This document shows, one piece after another, positions 35,430 through 48,106 of a stretch of 64,000 nucleotides of DNA. The notes under the pieces were generated by a model that made no database searches, was not told where the DNA came from, and worked only from the letters and a program-made list of their open reading frames with translations. Position numbers and translations under genes: made by a program. How positions within the stretch are numbered: position 1 is the stretch's first letter; each line of letters begins with the position of its first letter. The stretch spans positions 1-64,000 of the forward strand of contig JAPLRZ010000055.1 in assembly GCA_026398895.1 (NCBI GenBank), written 5' to 3'. Source of the DNA: Methylococcales bacterium (GTDB lineage Bacteria > Pseudomonadota > Gammaproteobacteria > Methylococcales > Methylomonadaceae).

Positions 35430-36182
35430 ATGCGTATTCTGTTAAGTAATGATGACGGCTACCTAGCTGAAGGGCTGTGTGCATTAGCCAATGCGTTGCG
35501 TGATCATGCCGAATTATCGGTAGTCGCACCCGATAGAAACCGTAGTGCAGCAAGCAATTCGTTGACCCTAGAAATGCCGTTACGCGCCCATACGATGGAC
35601 AACGGCTTTATTAAAGTGGATGGAACACCCACCGATTGCGTGCATTTAGCCATTACAGGTTTGCTCGATCAAGAACCTGATATGGTGATTGCAGGAATCA
35701 ATCACGGTGCTAATCTGGGTGATGATGTGCTGTATTCTGGCACGGTCGCTGCTGCCACCGAAGGGCGATTTTTAGGACTACCCGCAATGGCTATTTCCTT
35801 AGCAGGTAGCAATCCTACCCATTTTGACACCGCAGGGATAGTCGCACTGACGCTATTAAAACAATTAATTAAACAGCCGTTACCACGCGATACTATTCTT
35901 AATGTCAACGTCCCCGATGTGCCCTTGTACGCCTTAAGAGGTTATCAGGCGACACGCTTGGGGCAACGCCATAAATCCGAACCTGTAATTAAAAGTATCG
36001 ATCCGCGTGGTCGCAGCATTTATTGGGTAGGTCCACCAGGTGCAGAACAAGATGCAGGTGAAGGCACAGATTTTTATGCGATTAATGCTGGATTTGTTTC
36101 AGTCACTCCCCTACAAATTGATTTAACGTGGTATGAACGCATCAATGCGTTAACCGCATGGCTACCTAAGGAGCATGAATAA
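35430..36182 (+). CDS. surE: 5'-nucleotidase SurE
   Basis: Metal-dependent survival phosphatase acting on nucleoside monophosphates. Motifs: [42 protein letters not shown] and [19 protein letters not shown], covering the Asp-Asp-Ser-Asn metal set. The start at 35430 gives the canonical [10 protein letters not shown] and a 250-aa protein; the upstream extension has no family match. It overlaps the possible first ATG of pcm by 8 bp; surE-pcm coupling is common in gammaproteobacteria. Confidence 0.96.
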
Positions 36183-36183
36183 A

Positions 36184-36852
36184 ATGGTTCAAAGCCTACA
36201 AGGCATTGGTATGACTTCGTTACGGACGCGAGAGCGTATGATTAAACGCTTGTCCGAACAAGGAATTAAAAATACAAAAATTCTGGAAACACTGCGTAGC
36301 ACACCACGGCATATTTTTGTCGATGAGGCTCTAGCTAGTCGTGCTTATGAAGATGTTGCCTTACCCATCGGCTACAACCAAACCATTTCTCAGCCTTATA
36401 TTGTTGCCAAAATGACTGAGTTGCTGATTAAATCCCCGCAGCATCATTTAAAAAAAGTGTTGGAAATTGGTACGGGTAGTGGTTATCAAACCGCTGTATT
36501 GGCACAACTTGTCGATCATGTGTATAGCATTGAACGTATTTTGCCGTTACAGCGTAAAGCAAAAAGCTATTTATGGGATTTGAAACTAAAAAACATCAGC
36601 TTTATGTACGGTGATGGTGGTGTAGGTTGGGCAGATTACGCGCAATTCGACGGAATTTTAGTGTCTGCCGCGCCTTCACAAATCCCCAATACCCTGTTGC
36701 AACAATTGGCAATCGGTGGTGTGTTGGTTATTCCTGTTGGCATGGCGGGTAAACAAGTATTACAGCGCGTCACCCGTATTAGTGATGATAGTTACGACAT
36801 CGAACAATTTGATTCCGTGGTTTTTGTGCCTTTTTTATCAGGAAAAGAATAG
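36184..36852 (+). CDS. pcm: Protein-L-isoaspartate O-methyltransferase
   Basis: SAM-dependent repair enzyme that methylates isoaspartyl residues in damaged proteins. Motif I is VLEIGTGSGYQTAVLAQL, preceded by the Pcm signature LPIGYNQTISQPYIVAKMTELL. Total length is 222 aa. Two ATGs are possible: 36175 lies only 1 bp from the AAGGAG Shine-Dalgarno, while 36184 is 10 bp from it, so 36184 is chosen. nlpD-rpoS, which often follow pcm, are replaced here by a TPR/OGT-like gene. Confidence 0.93.
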   Translation: MVQSLQGIGMTSLRTRERMIKRLSEQGIKNTKILETLRSTPRHIFVDEALASRAYEDVALPIGYNQTISQPYIVAKMTELLIKSPQHHLKKVLEIGTGSGYQTAVLAQLVDHVYSIERILPLQRKAKSYLWDLKLKNISFMYGDGGVGWADYAQFDGILVSAAPSQIPNTLLQQLAIGGVLVIPVGMAGKQVLQRVTRISDDSYDIEQFDSVVFVPFLSGKE

Positions 36853-36860
36853 TCACTTTT

Positions 36861-39185
36861 ATGTTAGAACTTACCGACGATGACATTAATCAGATACTGA
36901 TTTTATTTAGCCAAGGTCACTACTCAGAAACAGAAGCCCGCGCTCGTGAACTCACTGTCCTGTTTCCAGCGCATGGCTTTGGCTGGAAAGTCTTAGGTGT
37001 GGTACTCAAGCAACAAGGGCAAATCGCCGACTCATTAAAGCCCATGCAAAAAGCCGCTGAATTACTTCCCGATGATGCTGAAGCGCACAGCAATTTAGCT
37101 GTTACCCTAATGAATCAAGGTTTGTTAACCGATGCCGTGCTGAGTTATCGTCGTGCGTTGGAACTCTATTCAGACTATGTCGATGTTCATCATAACTTGG
37201 GTTTAACCTTGATGACGCTAGGGCAAGTGACAGAAGCAGGCGTGTGTTTTCAGCGAGTGTTGGCACTCAATCCAGAGCATTCTGATGCCCGTTATAATTT
37301 AGGGGTTGTTTTTCAACAGCAAGGACAACTAGCAGACGCTGAAAACTGCTATCGCCGTGTTTTAGAAACACGACCTGAATTGAGTGATGCGCATAGCAAT
37401 TTAGCGTGGATATTGCATAACCAAGGACATTTGAATGCAGCCGAAGCTAGTTATCGACACGCATTAACACTCAACCCACAAGATGCAAAAGCTCATAGCC
37501 ATTTAGGGCTTATGCTACAAATGCAAGGGCGATTATTAGAAGCCCAACAATGCTATCAACAAGCACTCATTATCTATCCACAGTTTGCCGAACTGCATAA
37601 TAATTTAGGTATTGTGTTTCATGAATTGGGTTCTGCATACGAAGCCGAAGCCTGTTATCAACGCGCCTTGGACATCACGCCCACTTATTCGGAAGCATAT
37701 AATAACTTAGGACTAAGTTTGCAAAAACGAGGGCTGTTAGCAGACGCTGAAACCGCCTATCGCAACGCCTTGACACATAATCCTAATAATCCAGAATCAC
37801 ACAATAACATAGGCATTGTTTTTCAAGCGCGTGGGCAATTTATGGAAGCGGAAGCAAGCTATCAACGCGCACTCGCCATAAAACCCAATGATGCCCAAGT
37901 CCATAATAATCTAGGTGAATTCTACAAAGACTTAGGGCGATTTCTGAAAGCAGAAGCCAGCTTTCGCCGCGTGTTAGCCATTAATCCAGATCATATCGAC
38001 GCACACAGTAACTTACTGTTTGCCATGAATTACAATCCAGTTCATAGTCCCGCTGACTACTTAGTAGAAGCACGGTTATACGCGTTAAGCGTAAAAAATA
38101 ACATCAACGCGCCGTTTACAAGGTGGCATTGTGAAGAAAAACCTGAACGCTTGCGTGTCGGTATGGTGTTTGCTGATTTATCTAGTTCGGTGATTGGCTT
38201 GTTGTCAGAACTTGATAGCAGCTGTATTGAACTGATTGCCTATCCTACTCATACTAAAGCGAATGAATTCAGTGCTTACTTTAGCGCGATCAAGCCATTA
38301 AACACTTTAGACGATGAAGCCGCAGCACGTTTAATACACACTGATGGTGTTCACATTTTACTTGATTTGTCTGGTCACAGTGCTTACAACCGCTTGCCCG
38401 TATTCGCGTGGAAACCCGCACCGATACAAGTCAGTTGCTTAGGCTTACTTGCCAGCACTGGGCTTAGCGAAATGGATTATATCCTCGGCGATCCTTACGC
38501 AACACCGTTAGCCAATAGCGACTATTTTTCAGAAACCATCTGGCAACTGCCCGAATCCTATTGCTGTTTTAGTGTGCCAGAGATTGATTTGAATGTTAAT
38601 GAATCTCCAGCGTTAAACAGCTACGCCGTTACTTTTGGGTGTTTTAATCCGCTTAGCCTTATGACCAATGCAGTGGTAATTTTATGGGCGCGACTTCTCA
38701 ACGCCGTGCCATACTCACGGTTATTATTAAAAACTGAGCTATTAAACAACCCAGTAGTACGGCAAACAACCTGCCAACGCTTTGCCGAACAAGGCATTTT
38801 ACCTGAGCGATTAATATTGGAAGGCGTGTCATCACACGCTGAATTACTTGCCGCTTATCACCGTGTAGACATTGCCCTAGATACCTTTCCTTACAACGGC
38901 ACACACGCCAGCGTAGATGCTTTATGGATGGCCGTGCCTGTGATTACCCGCGCAGGCAGCCGTTGCGGTGAGAGTATTTTATCCAATGCCGAATTAGACG
39001 ACTGGATTGCGACCGATGATGACGATTATCTAGCAAAAGCCGTTTATTTTTCTTGGGATATTGCCAAGTTAGCAGAATTAAGAACCCAGCTTCGTGAAAA
39101 AGTATTAGCGTCGCCATTATTTGATACGGTGAATTTTGCCAGAAATTTTGAAGCCGCACTGTGGAGTATGTACCAACAGTTCTAA
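36861..39185 (+). CDS. TPR protein with O-GlcNAc-transferase-like C-terminal domain (GT41)
   Basis: A 774-aa cytoplasmic protein with about eleven consecutive 34-residue TPRs (residues about 10-390; for example AHSNLAVTLMNQGLLTDAVL, LHNNLGIVFHELGSAYEAEA) followed by a SPINDLY/OGT-like catalytic region. Recognisable GT41 motifs are ILLDLSGHSAYNRLPVFAWK, PAPIQVSCLG, SRLLLKTELLNN and ALDTFPYNGTHASVDALW. The UDP-binding lysine expected in the FN-x-x-x-K segment is Leu (TFGCFNPLSLMT) and the later HTT motif reads THAS, so catalytic competence is doubtful. Targets are unknown. It follows pcm by 8 bp. Confidence 0.85.
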   Translation: MLELTDDDINQILILFSQGHYSETEARARELTVLFPAHGFGWKVLGVVLKQQGQIADSLKPMQKAAELLPDDAEAHSNLAVTLMNQGLLTDAVLSYRRALELYSDYVDVHHNLGLTLMTLGQVTEAGVCFQRVLALNPEHSDARYNLGVVFQQQGQLADAENCYRRVLETRPELSDAHSNLAWILHNQGHLNAAEASYRHALTLNPQDAKAHSHLGLMLQMQGRLLEAQQCYQQALIIYPQFAELHNNLGIVFHELGSAYEAEACYQRALDITPTYSEAYNNLGLSLQKRGLLADAETAYRNALTHNPNNPESHNNIGIVFQARGQFMEAEASYQRALAIKPNDAQVHNNLGEFYKDLGRFLKAEASFRRVLAINPDHIDAHSNLLFAMNYNPVHSPADYLVEARLYALSVKNNINAPFTRWHCEEKPERLRVGMVFADLSSSVIGLLSELDSSCIELIAYPTHTKANEFSAYFSAIKPLNTLDDEAAARLIHTDGVHILLDLSGHSAYNRLPVFAWKPAPIQVSCLGLLASTGLSEMDYILGDPYATPLANSDYFSETIWQLPESYCCFSVPEIDLNVNESPALNSYAVTFGCFNPLSLMTNAVVILWARLLNAVPYSRLLLKTELLNNPVVRQTTCQRFAEQGILPERLILEGVSSHAELLAAYHRVDIALDTFPYNGTHASVDALWMAVPVITRAGSRCGESILSNAELDDWIATDDDDYLAKAVYFSWDIAKLAELRTQLREKVLASPLFDTVNFARNFEAALWSMYQQF

Positions 39186-39227
39186 AAACGACACCGCTAC
39201 GCTGCATTTGTTAGTTGAATCCAAGCA

Positions 39228-40640
39228 CTAAAAAGTCTGCCAGCCACCGCCTAGTACTTTGTAGAGTAATACTAAATCCGCTGATGTTTTTGCTTTACTG
39301 CTGACTAATAAGCTTTGCGCTTGATACAGTGATTGTTGACTGTTCAGCACATTAATAAAATTACTCAAGCCTTTTTCATAACGTTCAGTAGCTAACTGTA
39401 CGGCTTGTTGGTTAGCCGTCACTGCTTGCTGTAAGGCTCGTTGTTTTTGTTGTTCTTTGTCATAAGCGACTAATGCGTCTTCGACTTCTTTAAATGCAGT
39501 CAATACGGTTTTTTGATAGCCCAACAAACTTTGTTGGTACTGTGCTTCTTTACTTTTAATATTGGCATTTAGTCTGCCCCAATTAAACAATGGCATGGTT
39601 AAAGTAGCCCCTAAAGACCACGATTTACCAATGGGAGTAAAATCAGTGATACGGGTATTTTGCACGCCTAAAAATTCCGCTAAATTAAATTTGGGGTACA
39701 ATTCAGAGGTGGCAATACCAATCTGAGCATTGGCAATGGCAAGCTGGCGTTCTGCATAACGAATATCAGGGCGGCGTTGTAATAATGCAGACGGTAAATC
39801 AGGTAGTACGGTGGTTTTCACAATAGGAATAGTGGCGATAGGTTCTAATCGCGCCATCAGTGCATCGGGCTGTTTAGCCAATAACAAACTCAGCGCGTGT
39901 ATAGCTTGTTTAACAGCGGTTTCATAGCTGGGAAATTGGGCATTTATCGTGGCAAGTTCGGCTTCAGCTTGGGCGATTTCTGACATATCAGCTAAGCCCG
40001 CTTGTTGGCGTACTTTTAATAAATCCAGCGTGTCCTGTTGGCTGTGTAGGTTGACTTCGGTAATAGCTATCAGTTGTTGATTGCCACGCAACTCTATGTA
40101 ATTACGCGCCACTTCGCCTAATAGGGTGACTAATACATCACGCCGATTTTCGATTTCACTATCAATAGTAGCATCGGCGGCTTCTACCGCCCGTTGTACG
40201 CCACCAAAAAAATCGATTTCCCATTGGGCATCAACACCGAGTTGCAATAAATTGATAATTTGATTACTCAAACCAAAACTGCCTGCTTGTGAGGTTGATG
40301 AGGTGGAGGCAGAAGAATTTAATCGACGATTAACATTATTTTTGCCAGAAAAACTGGGTAAACCAGCGGCAATGGTTGCGCTGCGTTGTGTTCTGGCATC
40401 TTTAACGCGCTCTAGGGTTTGTTTTAAATCCAGATTGGCATTAATTGCATCGATAATGAGTTGATTGAGAATGGGGTCATTAAAGTTTTGCCACCATTTT
40501 TCCAAGGCTTTGACTTGCGGTGTTGTGGCAATTGGCACACTCCATTGTTTAGGTGTGAATACATCAGGACGCTGATAATCGAGGCCAACTACACACGCTG
40601 TCAATGATAGAGCAACAGCTACTAACGCATAACGCCTCAT
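39228..40640 (-). CDS. RND/ABC-type efflux outer membrane lipoprotein (NodT family)
   Basis: TolC-like outer membrane factor of 470 aa with a lipoprotein signal (MRRYALVAVALSLTAC; lipidated Cys at residue 16). Two OEP domains include WEIDFFGGVQRAVEAADA, LLQRRPDIRYAERQLA and the C-terminal LYKVLGGGW. It is paralogous to the channel at 4247 but not close. It overlaps the adaptor stop by 4 bp. The stop faces the TPR/OGT gene across 42 bp. Confidence 0.88.
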   Translation of the reverse strand: MRRYALVAVALSLTACVVGLDYQRPDVFTPKQWSVPIATTPQVKALEKWWQNFNDPILNQLIIDAINANLDLKQTLERVKDARTQRSATIAAGLPSFSGKNNVNRRLNSSASTSSTSQAGSFGLSNQIINLLQLGVDAQWEIDFFGGVQRAVEAADATIDSEIENRRDVLVTLLGEVARNYIELRGNQQLIAITEVNLHSQQDTLDLLKVRQQAGLADMSEIAQAEAELATINAQFPSYETAVKQAIHALSLLLAKQPDALMARLEPIATIPIVKTTVLPDLPSALLQRRPDIRYAERQLAIANAQIGIATSELYPKFNLAEFLGVQNTRITDFTPIGKSWSLGATLTMPLFNWGRLNANIKSKEAQYQQSLLGYQKTVLTAFKEVEDALVAYDKEQQKQRALQQAVTANQQAVQLATERYEKGLSNFINVLNSQQSLYQAQSLLVSSKAKTSADLVLLYKVLGGGWQTF

Positions 40641-41584
40641 GAGCCTTTACCCGTAGCCGCTTGGATTTCGATAAACACATCCATTTGCTGCCCGATATAA
40701 ATCGGCAGTTGTTTACGGTCAAAGCGGTACAGAGCTTGTAACACACGGGTATCAACGCGTTCGGTGCTATCGCCAGTTAGTGATTTTTTGGGTATCACAA
40801 ACGGTTCTAAATAAGCTAACGCCAGTTCGACTTTAAAATCACGGTTGCCACGCAAATACGCCACCGCTTTACTTGTTTTATCAAATCGCCACGCGTCATT
40901 TTCATCAATATCGACTCGAACATGGAGTTGCTCAAGATTGCCGATTATCATCAGCGGCGTGCTTAATGCACCTGCTTGAGCAAATTCACCCGCTCTAATA
41001 TTAACTTGTAATACTTCACCCTCAATTGGCGAGCGCACTATTAAACGTTCTAGGGTTGTGCGACTATTGGCTATGCTCGCTTGTGCTTGTTGTACGGCGG
41101 CTTTGGCACTGTCTAATTTTGTTTGCGCAATCGATACTGCGTTATGGCGTTTAAGTAATTCTTCTTTGCTAATGGCGCGTTTATCAGTAACGGATTCGGC
41201 TAAATTTTCCAATGACACGCTATCGCCTAGCGAGGCTTTGACTTCATTAACCGTGGCAATGGCTTTGGCTAAATCGGCTTCTTTCATCGCTAAATCGGCG
41301 CGGGTATCACGTTCATCTAAATAAAACAGCGGTGTACTTGTTTTAATCTGATCACCCACTTTAACGGCAACACGCGTCACAATTCGTGGCAACGGGGTAC
41401 CGATAGCGATATTTTGGCTTTGTGCTTCAATAATCCCCGCGCCAGCGATAAATTCTTTAAACGGAGAAGATGAAGGTTCGGCGACAGCTTGCGCAATCGG
41501 CATAGGTTGATTACTACTGACGACGGTATAACCTGCGAAAAATAAGCCAGTAATGGCAAGCAAGGGGAGTAAATATTTCATCAT
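40637..41584 (-). CDS. Periplasmic adaptor (HlyD/MFP family)
   Basis: Membrane fusion protein with an N-terminal anchor (MMKYLLPLLAITGLFFAGYTVV), a split biotinyl-lipoyl motif (GTPLPRIVTRVAVKVGDQIK and RSPIEGEVLQVNIRAGEFAQ) and a long helical hairpin between (residues about 95-190). Start 41584 (ATGATGAAA) was chosen over a TTG at 41593. It is directly followed by the outer membrane factor, but no RND or ABC permease is nearby, so the inner-membrane partner must be encoded elsewhere or has been lost. Confidence 0.85.
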   Translation of the reverse strand: MMKYLLPLLAITGLFFAGYTVVSSNQPMPIAQAVAEPSSSPFKEFIAGAGIIEAQSQNIAIGTPLPRIVTRVAVKVGDQIKTSTPLFYLDERDTRADLAMKEADLAKAIATVNEVKASLGDSVSLENLAESVTDKRAISKEELLKRHNAVSIAQTKLDSAKAAVQQAQASIANSRTTLERLIVRSPIEGEVLQVNIRAGEFAQAGALSTPLMIIGNLEQLHVRVDIDENDAWRFDKTSKAVAYLRGNRDFKVELALAYLEPFVIPKKSLTGDSTERVDTRVLQALYRFDRKQLPIYIGQQMDVFIEIQAATGKGS

Positions 41585-41595
41585 GGTTGGCAACC

Positions 41596-41751
41596 TTAAC
41601 AGTAATAAGGCGGATTGTCAGTGGACGGATCGCCACATCCCTCATTTTTATCGATAATTTCTTGCAGTAATATAGCCAGTAATTCACGAGGATAGTGTAT
41701 CTGTTCCGTGCCTCGTGAATACCGCTGTAATACGCCTGTTTCTATGCTCAT
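41596..41751 (-). CDS. Short ORF upstream of adaptor (51 aa), methyltransferase-like N-terminal fragment
   Basis: Reading the minus strand gives a 51-codon frame with ATG at 41751 and TAA at 41596, only 11 bp before the adaptor ATG. The product runs MSIETGVLQRYSRGTEQ, then LLAILLQEIIDKNEGCGDPS and ends PPYYC. The YSRG ... LLxILxQEIIxK-x-x-GCGDPS pattern resembles, from memory, the N-terminal segment before the SAM motif of ArsM-like methyltransferases, but the SAM-binding part is missing. It may be a truncated gene, or a genuine small protein or peptide cargo. Only AGAG lies upstream as a weak ribosome site. Confidence 0.45.
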   Translation of the reverse strand: MSIETGVLQRYSRGTEQIHYPRELLAILLQEIIDKNEGCGDPSTDNPPYYC

Positions 41752-42067
41752 ATAGTAAAATCTCTGTTGAACTTAATAAATGGACTGCATCGACCGTGTT
41801 TTTAGTCATCAATTCGGTGCATTTGGGACTGGCGTTGACCTAGCAATGTGTGGAAATCAGTATTTTTTAAATAGAGCGAAGAATCTAGCATTCGTTAGTA
41901 GCCTTCGACAAAAAAGTCATACTGTTAATTTTACATGAATAGTGACGTTAGCTGCTTGACTATTAATCGACAAAAATGCAACTTAGCACACATTAAGCCC
42001 AGTATTTATGCGATACTAGCCGCCTTAATTTTATCTAAATTTTGTTAATACTATTAAGGAGTAACAC
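41752..42067. other. Divergent intergenic region before purE
   Basis: About 316 bp, AT-rich, between the leftward small ORF/adaptor operon and rightward purE. No repeat family, terminator or convincing PurR-like operator was recognised. purE has a clear TAAGGAGTAA ribosome-binding site ending 5 bp before its ATG. Confidence 0.4.
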
Positions 42068-42565
42068 ATGACAGCACTGGTTGGCATCATCATGGGATCG
42101 ACCTCTGACTGGGAAACAATGCAATTTGCCGCTGAAACCCTAGAGCAGCTTGGCATTCCTTACGAGTGTGAAGTCGTTTCTGCACACCGCACCCCCGATA
42201 AATTGTTTGCTTATGCCGAAGTCGCAGAAATAAAAGGGCTAGAAGTGATTATTGCAGGTGCAGGTGGCGCGGCGCATTTACCTGGTATGACTGCCGCAAA
42301 AACTGCGATTCCCGTGTTAGGTGTTCCGATACAATCTAAAGCCTTAAATGGCATGGATTCCTTATTATCTATCGTACAGATGCCCGCAGGTATTCCCGTC
42401 GGTACGTTAGCGATAGGTAAAGCTGGGGCTATCAATGCGGCATTACTAGCAGCGGCGATTATCAGTAATAAACATATACAGTATCGGGAGGTATTAAATA
42501 CCTTTAGAAGTGAACAAACCGAATCTGTGTTAGAAAACTCAGATCCACGCAAGGAACAGTCATGA
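42068..42565 (+). CDS. purE: N5-carboxyaminoimidazole ribonucleotide mutase PurE
   Basis: Class I PurE, 165 aa, which moves the carboxyl group of N5-CAIR to give CAIR in purine synthesis. Signature motifs: [21 protein letters not shown] with the catalytic His, and [16 protein letters not shown] strong AAGGAG Shine-Dalgarno precedes the ATG. The stop overlaps purK's ATG by 4 bp. Confidence 0.97.
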
Positions 42566-43656
42566 AAGTGGGGATACTAGGTGCAGGACAACTTGCGCGT
42601 ATGATTGCCTTAGCAGGTTATCCTTTAGGACTGGAGTTTATTTTTCTTGATCCATCCGCCGATGCCTGCGCTCATCAATTAGGTGAGCATTTGCTGGGCG
42701 AGTATGACGACCCAGAATTATTGGCACAATTGGCTGAACGTGCCGATGTGGTCACTTATGAATTTGAAAATGTTCCAGCACCTGTAGCCGAATTTCTTGC
42801 CTCGCATACCCAAGTTCATCCTGCACCCAAAGCCCTAGCCGTTGCACAAGATCGTTTAGTTGAAAAAACTTTTTTCAATGACATTGGCATTCCTACGCCA
42901 CAGTATGCGGCTGTGAATAGTTTTGAAGAGTTACAACAAGTCATGACAAACATGGCTTATCCTGCAATTTTAAAAAGCCGCACCCAAGGCTATGACGGCA
43001 AAGGACAATCTCTATTAAAGTCAGCCGATGATTTAGTTGCCGCGTGGGATTTATTACAAGGCGTTCCCGCGATAGTAGAAGCCTTCGTGCCGTTTGATAG
43101 AGAGGTCTCTATTATCGCGGTGCGTAGTGTTTCAGGTGAGATTGCTTTTTACCCGCTGGCTGAAAATAGCCATCGTGGTGGAATTTTACGGGTATCAGAA
43201 AGCCGTGCGAGTGATGTAATGCAATCAGCGGCTGAAGCTTATGTCACCCGTTTACTGGTAGCCTTGGATTATGTTGGTGTGTTAGCCCTAGAATTATTTG
43301 AAGTCAACGGTGAATTAATCGCCAACGAATTCGCCCCGCGTGTTCATAATTCAGGACATTGGACAATTGAAGGCGCGGAAACCAGCCAATTTGAAAATCA
43401 CCTACGCGCTATTGTTGGCTTGCCCTTAGGTTTAACTGACTTAGTCGGACAATCGGCGATGGTTAATTTTATTGGTGGATTACCTGATAGTGAAAAATTA
43501 TTAGCACTGTCACACACACATCTGCATCTTTATGACAAAGAACCGCGCAAAGGTCGAAAAGTCGCTCATGCTACAGTTCGCGCTGCTAGTGCCGAACAAC
43601 TAGCCGCGCTGGTGCAACCGTTAATCGTACTGGCTGATGAAATAGACGATTCTTAA
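42562..43656 (+). CDS. purK: 5-(carboxyamino)imidazole ribonucleotide synthase PurK
   Basis: ATP-grasp ligase that makes N5-CAIR from AIR, bicarbonate and ATP, supplying PurE. The 364-aa protein starts [20 protein letters not shown] (PurK dinucleotide loop), and has [14 protein letters not shown] and the metal-binding [26 protein letters not shown]. The ATGA overlap with purE indicates coupled translation. Confidence 0.97.
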
Positions 43657-43662
43657 TCTTCT

Positions 43663-43706
43663 GGAGCGCAAGCTTTGCTTGCAAGTGCAGGCAAAGCCTG
43701 CACTCC
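43663..43706. repeat. GGAG...ACTCC twin-hairpin repeat
   Basis: GGAGC then stem GCAAGC-TTT-GCTTGC, AAGT, then stem GCAGGC-AAA-GCCTGC, then ACTCC. The two hairpins are tandem with different stem bases. The element lies between purK and cysS and is the cleanest example of the family seen here. Confidence 0.7.
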
Positions 43707-43788
43707 AACTTATCGAAGATTTAGCTTGAAACACCATCCCACGCTTTATAACAACACCGCTTTGTTTGCCTAAACGACTAAAAATAGA

Positions 43789-45156
43789 ATGTTAAAAATA
43801 TATAACACCCTCACTCGAAAAAAAGAACAATTCCAGCCGCGTGTTGCGGGTAAAGTCGGAATGTATGTTTGCGGCATGACCGTTTACGATTACTGCCACA
43901 TCGGACACGCACGGGTTATGGTAGTGTTTGATACCGTGGCGCGTTATTTTCGTCACTCAGGTTATGACTTAACCTACGTTCGCAATATCACCGACATCGA
44001 CGACAAAATCATTAACCGCGCTATCGAAAACGGCGAAGACTACACAGCCCTAACTGAGCGTTTTATCACCGCGATGCACGAAGATGAACAAGCACTATCC
44101 GTGTTGCCCGTAGATAGTGAACCCCGCGCCACGCAATCCATTCCTGACATTATCGCCATGATTGAAACCTTGATTACCAACGGTTTGGCTTACGTTGGTA
44201 GTAATGGTGATGTGTTTTACGCCGTGACTAAGTTTAAAAACTACGGGCAGTTATCAGGCAAAAATCTGGATGACTTGCAAGCGGGTGAACGAGTCGATGT
44301 AGACCACGCAAAAAATAACCCGCTGGATTTTGTCTTATGGAAAATGGCAAAAGCCAATGAACCCACGTGGCAATCACCTTGGGGCAATGGACGACCAGGT
44401 TGGCATATTGAATGCTCGGCAATGTCTACTTGTTGCTTGGGTAATTCCTTTGACATACACGGCGGCGGCATGGATTTACAGTTTCCGCACCATGAAAATG
44501 AAATCGCCCAATCCGAAGGTGCGACAGGTGAAAAATTCGTTAATCTATGGATGCACAACGGTTTTGTGCGTGTTGATAACGAAAAAATGTCCAAATCCTT
44601 GGGCAATTTTTTCACCGTCCGCGAAGTGTTAAAACAATACCGCCCTGAAATCATCCGCTTTTTTATCCTCTCCAGTCATTACCGTAGCCCGCTCAATTAT
44701 TCTGATGAATCATTGAATGAGGCTTATAGCGCGTTGACTCGTTTATATACTGCATTACGCGGTGTGGATAGCGTTGATTCAGCCGTTGATACGGATTACA
44801 AAGCCCGTTTTGAACAGGCAATGGATGATGATTTTAATACCCCTGTTGCCTTAGCCGTGTTATTTGATTTAGCGCGGGATTTAAACAAAGCCAAAACCCA
44901 CGAACCTGAAAAAGTAGCTGGTTTAGCCGCCAATTTAAAACAATTAGCAAGCTTGCTGGGTTTATTACAAGATGCCCCCGACGCATTTTTAAAAGGCGAT
45001 GCAGACGACGACATCGAACAACAAACCCAAGCCCGCATCGACGCAAAAAAAGCCAAAGACTGGGCAACTGCCGATAAAATCCGCAATGACTTAAAAGCCA
45101 ACGGCATTATTTTGGAAGACGCGCCCGATGGTACAACTAGCTGGCGGCGTGAATAA
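43789..45156 (+). CDS. cysS: Cysteinyl-tRNA synthetase
   Basis: Class I aminoacyl-tRNA synthetase of 455 aa charging tRNA-Cys. The HIGH motif appears in CHIGHARV and KMSKS in [11 protein letters not shown]. Zinc ligands are expected among the Cys of [21 protein letters not shown] and the His of FPHHENE. The C-terminal anticodon-binding part ends with [20 protein letters not shown]. Start chosen at [15 protein letters not shown]. Confidence 0.97.
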
Positions 45157-45167
45157 GAAAACCTCAT

Positions 45168-45281
45168 AGTTCCCACCGCTCCAGCGTGGGAACTCATCCT
45201 GCAACGCTCCAGCGTTGCGTGACCATGAAGACGCTGGAGCGTCAACTGAGGCATTCCAATGCAGAGTATTGGAACGATTAA
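45168..45281. repeat. CTCCAGCG palindromic repeat, long copy
   Basis: The unit has AGTTCCCACCGCTCCAGCG, a 28-nt insert, TTGCGTGACC, the palindrome GACGCTGGAGCGTC and CATTCCAATGCAGAGTATTG hairpin segments. A shorter copy at 45663-45748 lacks the 28 nt lying between two CGCTCCAGCG repeats. Both copies flank the orphan hicB. Confidence 0.65.
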
Positions 45282-45391
45282 AAGGATTTTTCCGTTCGCC
45301 CTGAGCTTGTCGAAGGGTCAATGGAAAAATCCGAAGCCCAAGTTAAGCCGTTCATGCTTCGACAAACTCAGCACGAACGGCTTAACTTGGG
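45281..45391. repeat. TTCGACAAGCTCAGCACGAACGG family repeat, copy 2
   Basis: Core nearly identical to 33411-33515: CCGTTCGCCCTGAGCTTGTC followed by its near complement, ending CACGAACGGCTTAACTTG. This copy directly abuts the CTCCAGCG repeat and precedes a third fragment GACGCAGAGCGTTTGAACGA. Confidence 0.7.
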
Positions 45392-45437
45392 GTATTGACG
45401 CAGAGCGTTTGAACGATAAAAACTCAAGGAATAACTT

Positions 45438-45650
45438 ATGCGTTACGCAATCATTGTTGAAAAAGCAGAAAATAATTACTCAGCCTATGTTCCAGATTTA
45501 CTGGGTTGTGTTGCCACAGGTGCGACCATTGAAGAAGCCGAGCGTGAAATTCGTACCACCATCGAATTTCATCTTGAAGGTATAATTGAAGACGGTTTAC
45601 CTATCCCACAACCAACCAGTATTGTTGAATATATTGAAGCGGCGGCTTAG
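45438..45650 (+). CDS. hicB: HicB-like antitoxin, orphan
   Basis: A 70-aa HicB-fold protein: MRYAIIVEKAENNYSAYVPDLLGCVATGATIEEAEREIRTTI is the partial RNase H-like fold of HicB antitoxins, with the YVPDLLGC segment typical. Normally the ~60-aa toxin HicA lies directly upstream; here the upstream DNA is all repeats and no HicA frame was found. The short C-terminal part lacks the usual DNA-binding domain. It is probably a decayed or solitary antitoxin. AAGGAATAACTT precedes the ATG. Confidence 0.85.
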   Translation: MRYAIIVEKAENNYSAYVPDLLGCVATGATIEEAEREIRTTIEFHLEGIIEDGLPIPQPTSIVEYIEAAA

Positions 45651-45662
45651 ATTGTACAATAT

Positions 45663-45748
45663 AGTTCCCACCGCTCCAGCGTTGCGTGACTATAAAGACG
45701 CTGGAGCGTCAACTAAGGCATTCCAACGCAGAGCGTTGGAGCGATAAA
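45663..45748. repeat. CTCCAGCG palindromic repeat, short copy
   Basis: Same unit as 45168-45281 with the internal 28-nt segment missing, including GACGCTGGAGCGTC and CATTCCAACGCAGAGCGTTG. It lies between hicB and the membrane-protein gene at 45788. Confidence 0.65.
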
Positions 45749-45787
45749 ACGATGCAAACGCACCAAAACCAATTAAGGAAAACAGTA

Positions 45788-46525
45788 ATGAGTGAAGAAA
45801 ATAATAAGAAGGCATGGTGGGAGATTCTAGTTTTATTGACACCACTAATAAGTGGAGTTTTTGTGACAAGTGTTGGACTTTATCTCACATACAGCAGTAA
45901 CCAGCAACAATCAGATTTCGAGAAACGGAAGTCAGTTGTTGCACACAACGATACATTATTAGTTACGGTATTAGATAAATTGGCTCCATTATTAACTTCT
46001 GATGACTTTAATAAACGACGGTTTGGTTACCGTGCTATGTACGCACTTGGGGAAGTAGATGTTGCCAACAAGCTAATCTCTGCAACTGATGACCCTGCTG
46101 GTCTTGATCCAATGCGAGAAAAAGCGAAGCAATTAGAAGGCACTCTCAACGCCAAAGAGGCTGAGAAAATGCAAACGACTGCATCATCTCTTACTGTACT
46201 GATATATATGCAACTAGCCGATATAAGCCAAAAACAGAGTGCGGAAGAAACTAGAAAAAATCTTTTGGGGATTTTGAACAATGACAAGAAATCCAAATAT
46301 ATTATTCCTAATATAGGTTCTGTAGTTGGCGCTGCACCAACAAAAACGGAAGTACGTTATTTTAATGTCTCAGATGAACCCATTGCCAAAGACATTACTA
46401 ATAAACTTATAGAGAAAGGCGTGAAAGATGCAACTTCATCTCAGAATTTCCAGTATGAAGTTAATAAAGGTAATTTAGAAATTTGGTTTTCTAAGAATGC
46501 TTTTAACAATATCCTTGTAAAATAG
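45788..46525 (+). CDS. Hypothetical membrane-anchored protein
   Basis: Unrecognised 245-aa protein with one N-terminal membrane helix (residues about 10-33, WWEILVLLTPLISGVFVTSV) and a soluble, Lys/Glu/Thr-rich domain of about 210 residues. The soluble part has an alpha-helical stretch (KQLEGTLNAKEAEKMQTTAS) and a final alpha/beta region with KTEVRYFNVSDEPI resembling a SPOR-like or ferredoxin-like fold. The start at MSEENNKKAW has AAGGAAAA upstream; a 34-codon extension starts inside the repeat and is rejected. Its setting suggests an accessory gene. Confidence 0.7.
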   Translation: MSEENNKKAWWEILVLLTPLISGVFVTSVGLYLTYSSNQQQSDFEKRKSVVAHNDTLLVTVLDKLAPLLTSDDFNKRRFGYRAMYALGEVDVANKLISATDDPAGLDPMREKAKQLEGTLNAKEAEKMQTTASSLTVLIYMQLADISQKQSAEETRKNLLGILNNDKKSKYIIPNIGSVVGAAPTKTEVRYFNVSDEPIAKDITNKLIEKGVKDATSSQNFQYEVNKGNLEIWFSKNAFNNILVK

Positions 46526-46530
46526 CACGG

Positions 46531-46609
46531 TAGGATGGGTAGAACGTAGTGAAACCCATCACAAAGGCAATAAAATTTGATGGGTTTCGTTATCACTCTA
46601 CCCATCCTA
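46531..46609. repeat. TAGGATGGGTAGA inverted repeat
   Basis: A 31-32-bp inverted repeat with a few mismatches (46531-46561 against 46578-46609: TAGGATGGGTAGAACG ... CGTTATCACTCTACCCATCC) and a 16-nt AT-rich centre. It resembles a repeat common in many gammaproteobacterial genomes and may terminate the 45788 gene. Confidence 0.7.
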
Positions 46610-46732
46610 TAGTAATATTCTGGTGATAATTCATATTATGTTCGGCTTGTGCGTGACGGACAGTAATTTTTTGCTTTCACTTAAATTAAATCCTGTTTAA
46701 AAATTAAATAACCAAACATTGAGGAAAATACT

Positions 46733-46936
46733 ATGCTCGCAATAGAATTTGAAACCCAAGCGCATAACGGTATTGTGCAAATCCCCGAACACTATCCTGC
46801 TTGGAAAAATAAAACCGTAAAAGTTATTTTATTGGATTCAGAAACGAAAAAAACACTAAACCCCATCCAATTTAATGCGATAAAACTTAAAACAAAATAC
46901 TACCGTTTTAATCGAGATGAGGCGAATGAACGCTAA
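46733..46936 (+). CDS. VapB-like antitoxin
   Basis: A 67-aa protein with an N-terminal beta-rich AbrB-like or VapB-like start (MLAIEFETQAHNGIVQIPEHYPAW) and a basic C-terminus (KLKTKYYRFNRDEANER) that could wrap around the toxin. It overlaps the downstream PIN toxin start, as in vapBC pairs. The role is inferred from the neighbour. A TTGAGGAAAATACT ribosome site precedes the ATG. Confidence 0.65.
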   Translation: MLAIEFETQAHNGIVQIPEHYPAWKNKTVKVILLDSETKKTLNPIQFNAIKLKTKYYRFNRDEANER

Positions 46937-47342
46937 AATCTTTTTTGATACTAATTTGTTGGTTTATCTCTATTCAGAAGATGAGCTTGAAAAACAAGCC
47001 CAAATACTAACGCCGATTAAAGATACTGAAAATCGTTGGATTAGCACACAAGTTTTAAATGAACTCAGCAATACGCTCCGCAGAAAATTCAAATTGGAAT
47101 ATGCTGATATAGCTAATGTGATTGCTGAAATTCGCGATAATTTTGAAATTATCACAGTTCAAATTGAAACAATAGAACGGGCATTAAAAATCGCTGAAAA
47201 ATATCGTTATTCTTATTACGATAGCGTCATTATTGCGGCGGCTTTAGAATCATCATGCACATTATTGTATTCCGAAGATATGCAGCATAATCAAATTATT
47301 GAAGGACAATTACAAATTATTAATCCATTTAAACAGGATTAG
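46926..47342 (+). CDS. vapC: PIN-domain toxin (VapC-like)
   Basis: RNase toxin of the PIN family. The acidic residues are in place: FFDTN at the N-terminus (Asp8), VLNELSNTL (Glu), YSYYDSVIIAAAL (Asp) and LLYSEDMQHNQ (Asp). Length 138 aa. The start at MNAKIFFDTN was chosen; an ATG three codons earlier (46917) is possible. It overlaps the antitoxin stop by 11 bp. It targets tRNA or rRNA in known systems; the target here is unknown. Confidence 0.88.
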   Translation: MNAKIFFDTNLLVYLYSEDELEKQAQILTPIKDTENRWISTQVLNELSNTLRRKFKLEYADIANVIAEIRDNFEIITVQIETIERALKIAEKYRYSYYDSVIIAAALESSCTLLYSEDMQHNQIIEGQLQIINPFKQD

Positions 47343-47362
47343 CGGCTTTTCACAGTGAGTAT

Positions 47363-47389
47363 GTCGGGCTAACGATAGCGTAACCCGAC
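47363..47389. repeat. GTTGGGTTAGCG-type palindromic repeat
   Basis: Stem GTCGGGCTA / GTAACCCGAC around ACGATAGC. The same family as 23366-23392 and 25015-25039; located after vapC. Confidence 0.5.
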
Positions 47390-47476
47390 CTTGTATCTAC
47401 AAAATTACAGCTTGCTGTTAAAATACTCCCAAATAACCCAACACTGAACACATTAAAACCACAACCCCATTCAACC

Positions 47477-48106
47477 ATGAGCGAAATAAAAGACCAACCT
47501 ATTCAACAATTTCTCGATGAACTTGCCAGTAAATCTGCCACACCTGGTGGCGGTTCTGCGGCGGCAACTATGGGCGCACAAGGCGCGGCTCTTATCAGCA
47601 TGGTTTGCAATTTAACCATCGGCAAGCCAAAATTTGCCGAGGTTGAAGCCGATATGCAAACCTTGTTAAGCGATGCCGAAACCTTGCGCCAACAGCTTAC
47701 CGATATGATTAAAGCCGATGTCGATGTGTTTAATCGGGTGATGGCAAGCTACGGCTTACCGAAAGAAACCGATGTGGAAAAAGCCGCCCGCAGTGCCGCG
47801 ATTCAGGACGTATTAAAAGAGGCAACCGATGTGCCGCTAGACTGTGCCAAAGCCTGTGCCAAAGTTATCGCCTTAAGCCAAATCGCCGCCGAAAAAGGTA
47901 ATCCAAACGTCATCAGTGATGCAGGTGCGGGTTTGATGGCAGCTTACGGTGGTTTAAAAATAGCCGCGCTGAATGTGTATATCAACGCAGGAAGCCTAAA
48001 AGACCGCGACTTTGCCGAAGCAAAATTGGCTGAATTAGCCACCATTATGCAAGATGCAGAAACCAACACAGAAATAATCTATCAGGCGATTAAAGCCAAG
48101 CTGTAA
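47477..48106 (+). CDS. fchA: Methenyltetrahydrofolate cyclohydrolase (FchA/FTCD_C)
   Basis: A 209-aa cyclodeaminase-family enzyme that interconverts methenyl- and formyl-tetrahydrofolate. It has the signature FLDELASKSATPGGGSAAATMGAQGAAL at the N-terminus and ALNVYINAGSLKDRDFA near the C-terminus. In methylotrophs FchA works with MtdA/B to feed C1 units to the serine cycle, so it supports the methylotroph inference. Alternatively it is a histidine-pathway formimino-THF cyclodeaminase, but no hut genes are nearby. Confidence 0.88.
   Translation: MSEIKDQPIQQFLDELASKSATPGGGSAAATMGAQGAALISMVCNLTIGKPKFAEVEADMQTLLSDAETLRQQLTDMIKADVDVFNRVMASYGLPKETDVEKAARSAAIQDVLKEATDVPLDCAKACAKVIALSQIAAEKGNPNVISDAGAGLMAAYGGLKIAALNVYINAGSLKDRDFAEAKLAELATIMQDAETNTEIIYQAIKAKL

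Follow-up and report, generated by a model that had tools for sequence, protein, structure and literature searches.

The 51-codon open reading frame (ORF) that stands directly before an adaptor gene in the window, that is, in the whole 64,000-nucleotide stretch of DNA analysed here, is very probably a scar left by two internal deletions in an arsM-like gene. As such it is an ordinary pseudogene scar. The frame starts with ATG at 41751 and runs on the minus strand to 41596, stop codon included, and its translation is MSIETGVLQRYSRGTEQIHYPRELLAILLQEIIDKNEGCGDPSTDNPPYYC. The spacer between its stop and the adaptor ATG ATG at 41584 has 11 bases, in agreement with the initial annotation, which had placed the frame at this distance from the adaptor on the same strand. 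The mechanical ORF list also gives a TTG at 41593 as a possible start of the adaptor. As one of two alternatives, the initial annotation had read the product as an N-terminal fragment of an ArsM-like methyltransferase that has lost its SAM domain. The ancestry and the missing domain are confirmed, but this is not a simple N-terminal truncation, since the start of the gene is retained along with its C-terminal tail and original stop. The features of the region are collected in Table 1.

Table 1. Features of the relic-adaptor-OMF region, in window coordinates
Feature	Position	Strand	Basis or correspondence
TolC-like outer-membrane factor (OMF), intact	39228..40640	-	Pfam OEP and TIGR01845 outer_NodT above cut-off
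HlyD-type periplasmic adaptor, intact	40637..41584	-	Pfam HlyD_D23 and HlyD_3 above cut-off
arsM-like relic ORF	41596..41751	-	Alignment with adaptor-linked arsM of G048, G123 and G088; same form in G070
Relic codons 1-18	41751-41698	-	arsM codons 1-18
Relic codons 19-43	41697-41623	-	arsM codons 27-51
Relic codons 44-51 and stop	41622-41596	-	Last eight arsM codons and stop
arsS remnant	41788..41891	-	blastn to arsS of G048, G123, G088, C34 and C56; three-frame translation
Gene read as purE	42068..42565	+	ORF list; divergent to relic

The length of the ORF is no evidence of a gene, because 47 frames of at least 45 codons overlap the 12-kb stretch 36000-48000 in the ORF list, and many of these lie within longer frames or antisense to them. 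It is more than a chance frame because of its homology to ArsM-like N-termini: residues 1-43 align to the N-terminus of ArsM-like proteins of about 371 residues. In the window genome itself (G000), such matches are found at C34 (E 3.1e-12) and C56 (E 2.7e-10). Among 201 genomes of the family, the own one counted, 60 contain a match at E <= 0.1, and all 51 residues are covered only in the window and in G070, a relative of the same genus (84% identity). At E <= 1, some match is present in seven of the eight genus genomes. The product has no match up to E 1 in Pfam or NCBIfam, and no hydrophobic N-terminal signal was seen in it on inspection by eye.

The intact state of the locus is preserved in three relatives. 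In G048, G123 and G088, the orthologous adaptor directly follows a complete arsM-like gene of 371 codons, which is preceded by arsS; the next gene upstream of arsS has 739 to 742 codons. The full-length methyltransferase that the initial annotation had proposed to look for at this locus in relatives is thus present in them. ArsS, the arsenosugar biosynthesis radical SAM protein of TIGR04167, is recognized with 465 bits in G048 and 456 bits on C34 (cut-off 300 bits). The G048 methyltransferase stays below the NCBIfam cut-offs of its best models (NF040538, 342 of 500 bits; PRK11873, 188 of 263; NF038099, 133 of 400) and is therefore called ArsM-like here. The 739-codon gene of G048 (L037:9825-12044) is a "fused MFS/spermidine synthase" above the NCBIfam cut-off and matches no Pfam family at E 0.001.

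Aligned with the adaptor-linked arsM genes, the relic falls into three blocks. At the first junction (41698/41697), 24 bp (8 codons) have been lost together with the LCC motif; at the second (41623/41622), 936 bp (312 codons) have been lost together with the SAM domain. Both deletions are multiples of three and in frame. A three-base microhomology, TCC, is present at the second junction in G048 and G123. The relic tail, STDNPPYYC, corresponds to SSDNPPCCC in G048 and G123 and to SNDNPPCCC in G088, while the other two arsM genes of the window genome end in ADGAPSCC (C34) and DCASTGCC (C56). The DNPP tail, common only to the relic and the adaptor-linked genes, links the relic to these and not to C34 or C56. 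The relic of G070 has identical junctions. This shows that the deletions are older than the split of the two lineages, and it excludes an assembly error.

Descent from an ArsM methyltransferase is thus established by homology over the retained part and by synteny, while the hallmarks of such an enzyme are missing. The relic lacks 320 of the 371 codons of the ArsM-like proteins encoded next to ArsS. The 312 codons of the larger deletion include the DLGSGSGK region, which we take to be SAM-binding. The LCC pair and everything between codon 51 and the tail are deleted, leaving the cysteine of GCGDPS and the last cysteine. According to passages of PMC8552651, most ArsM proteins have four conserved cysteines, and ArsS works with ArsM in arsenosugar biosynthesis; conserved ArsM cysteines are also treated in a passage of PMC5552862. 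Our limited literature search returned no publications on ArsS with ArsM in arsenosugar biosynthesis and none on arsM in methanotrophs or Methylococcales.

Upstream of the relic, in the expected place, lies a remnant of arsS, frameshifted and mostly gone. Its first part consists of the start codon (41891) and about 38 bases of the gene, and its second part of about 66 bases matching the THCHVNAGPKRTELMDKKTVD region. The two are separated by a frame-shifting deletion, and the old frame contains a TAG; the remainder of the gene is gone. Beyond the remnant is a divergent gene, presumably purE. Of the five genomes compared, only G000 and G070 have the relic-adaptor-OMF block beside purE, while in G022, G048 and G123 it is found elsewhere; moreover, G000 and G070 have different genes after the OMF. 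These differences place the block in a rearranging region. Between 41500 and 42100 there are 2 promoter-like sites (2.2 expected) and no terminator-like sites.

The alignments show the following course of decay in place. An ancestral array arsS-arsM-adaptor-OMF lost most of arsS, and its arsM lost 24 bp and 936 bp before the window and G070 lineages separated, so that the arsM start, 43 N-terminal codons, the last eight codons and the stop became fused into a 51-codon frame. The junctions may have been made by slippage or microhomology deletion. The loss was probably tolerated because two further arsM copies have arsS nearby. Having lost the SAM domain, the remaining peptide would be unable to methylate arsenic, and it would have no function of its own. 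Four observations count against the scar. First, that both arsM deletions are in frame has a chance of about 1 in 9. Second, the frame is open in both genomes, for which the odds are about even under neutrality. Third, dN/dS between the two relics has a point value of 0.475. Fourth, residues I3 and Q9 are as in the C34 and C56 copies, unlike those of G048, G123 and G088; this state was either present in the common ancestor or changed back.

The ORFs of G000 and G070 differ by 13 substitutions, 8 replacement and 5 silent (dN 0.072, dS 0.152, dN/dS 0.475). For the adaptor, the OMF and purE, dN is 0.011, 0.018 and 0.004, and dS is 0.14, 0.21 and 0.16, respectively. The replacement rate of the ORF is therefore 4 to 18 times that of its three neighbours, at a similar silent rate; the adaptor (dN/dS 0.079) and the OMF (0.083) are constrained. 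The share of replacement changes is higher in the ORF than in the pooled neighbours (Fisher p 0.003, with the 17.5 silent and 1.5 replacement changes of purE rounded to 18 and 1). In the stretch from purE to the ORF, 17 of 309 aligned bases differ and there are 7 gap positions. When 13 substitutions were simulated neutrally (20,000 runs at each of three transition shares), the frame stayed open in 47-54% of runs, and at most 8 residues were changed in 33-42% of the open runs. The open frame and the ratio of 0.475 are thus no evidence of function, although this ratio, from 13 substitutions in the 2 relic-bearing genomes among the 8 of the genus, may be compatible with weak constraint on the ORF.

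Comparison with intact proteins concerns 29 ArsM copies, from 29 of 30 chosen loci, one having been lost to a filter. The filter demanded CCPVDYD or CCPIDYD and thereby imposed the invariance of D27, Y28 and D29. Among the retained positions, 27 are invariant in the 29 copies, of which 6 are changed per relic; with the three imposed positions set aside, 24 are invariant and 4 are changed in each relic. The changes at these 24 positions are A15T, P37L, D44N and Y45E in G000, and A15T, D44N, Y45E and G46V in G070.

A different reading of the open frame is that the shortened gene has been kept as a translated leader to which translation of the adaptor is coupled. Ribosomes entering at the old arsM start would end at a stop beside the ribosome-binding site of the adaptor, and what selection maintains would be the open frame and not the sequence of the peptide. 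Such a leader would account for an open frame with freely changing residues. Both deletions are in frame and the original stop is kept, and the distance from the stop to the adaptor ATG is 11 bases in the window, 8 in G048 and G123, and 3 in G088. In G000, G070, G048 and G123 an AAGG lies across the stop or next to it, but G088 lacks this AAGG. Moreover, chance can account for two in-frame deletions and an open frame, and RNA folding at the junction is not unusual (z 0.26), which also disposes of a structured RNA at this place. In the translational coupling described in the abstracts of PMC12548453 and PMC6728339, the upstream stop is likewise close to the downstream gene start; in the window, the upstream frame is a relic and coupling is putative. 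On balance, a coupling leader seems unlikely.

It is highly improbable that the ORF encodes a functional small protein, be it a peptide exported by the adaptor and the OMF or a new gene made from the ends of arsM. The identical 51-codon form in two genomes and a dN/dS below 1 would be consistent with such a protein, but a change of so few residues is common in open neutral simulations and the replacement share exceeds that of the neighbours. Furthermore, the form occurs in only 2 of the 8 genus genomes, the product matches no Pfam or NCBIfam family, and the adaptor/OMF pair occurs without the ORF in G022 and outside the genus. The initial annotation had suggested a small cysteine-containing peptide exported by the following proteins, and had named a conserved ORF of about 50 residues as the mark of a real small gene. 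Neither the exported peptide nor a conserved small gene is supported: constraint is not detectable, and 8 replacement against 5 silent changes show no silent bias and fit the neutral simulation. Finally, a copy of the 5' end of the C34 or C56 arsM, set before the adaptor by promoter capture, for example, is barely credible even though residues 1-43 score well against C34 and I3 and Q9 agree with both copies, because the tail and stop fit the adaptor-linked arsM, the arsS remnant is in place, and over comparable codons the window ORF has 29, 33 and 35 base differences to the adaptor-linked copies versus 42 and 53 to C34 and C56.

The adaptor/OMF pair next to the scar had been described as a permease-less exporter operon. 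A second locus of the same genome (C32:76925-78769, L177) encodes a permease and then an ATPase, which would explain the apparent lack. No adaptor or OMF was seen by eye among the frames adjacent to that locus. The window adaptor is below the cut-offs of TIGR01730 and TIGR02971, and its relatives were surveyed in the best 80 of 315 adaptor loci from named records; in 16 of these 80 the sequence upstream of the adaptor is shorter than 2.3 kb. A permease was counted anywhere upstream on the same strand in the locus, and an ATPase within 1 kb. By this count, 60 of these 80 loci have both, 5 have an ATPase without a permease, and 14 have neither (5 of these with less than 2.3 kb upstream); in one (L126) the permease is more than 5 kb off and its ATPase is there too. 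The permease/ATPase pair of L078, whose permease is 86% identical to that on C32, matches Pfam FtsX, MacB_PCD and ABC_tran above cut-off. In 3 of the best 80 loci (L050, L051 and L052, the records of G070, G048 and G123), arsS/arsM adjoins the adaptor; G022 has adaptor and OMF (L053) without adjoining arsM.

A full-length permease match free of internal stops is present in all six adaptor-bearing genomes of the genus. The other two, G102 and G114, with a listed completeness of 88% and 74%, contain no adaptor match at E <= 1e-20, and their permease matches have internal stops (G114:C82 and G102:C33; L160, L161 and L163), so a joint loss of adaptor and permease is possible there. Outside the genus, relatives of the adaptor are mostly preceded by an FtsX/MacB-type permease with an ABC ATPase and followed by an OMF, as in exporters of the MacA-MacB-TolC/DevBCA type. 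In contrast, the window genome has permease and ATPase, and adaptor and OMF, at two loci. As far as gene content can tell, this points to the pair being half of a split ABC exporter, not a permease-less system, with the two halves presumably functioning jointly.

The two further arsM copies of the window genome, on C34 and C56, each have arsS upstream. The arsS on C34 is an open frame. That on C56 (G000:C56, L036:7979-8930) has a TGA at a position that is tryptophan (SVDW) in the two copies compared. A selenocysteine reading of this TGA was rejected, given the tryptophan in these copies and a search for tRNA-Sec that yielded nothing at the gathering score; the TGA would seem to be either a nonsense mutation or an error of sequencing. 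Short open frames also occur in further homology rows, from G054, G033, G138, G197 and G083. The arsM of G083 (C54, L026) is disrupted some 66 codons in (DVVLDL), which shows that arsM decay in the family extends beyond the window locus.

Taken further, the arrangement could mean that in this genus the adaptor/OMF half became linked to arsS-arsM for the export of organoarsenicals, that the biosynthetic half then decayed in the window lineage, and that translation of the relic continues there, its frame being maintained as a coupling leader driving the adaptor. Judged from gene order and sequence, this whole chain of events is quite unlikely. The ORF as a deletion scar settles the small-ORF call: an apparent uncalled gene is a deletion relic whose intact state still exists in sister genomes. 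The use of this result lies in annotation, and results of this kind are unsurprising. It also shows one of three arsS-arsM sets in one genome in decay. Of more interest is a by-product of the analysis, the linkage of arsS-arsM with half of an exporter in this genus.
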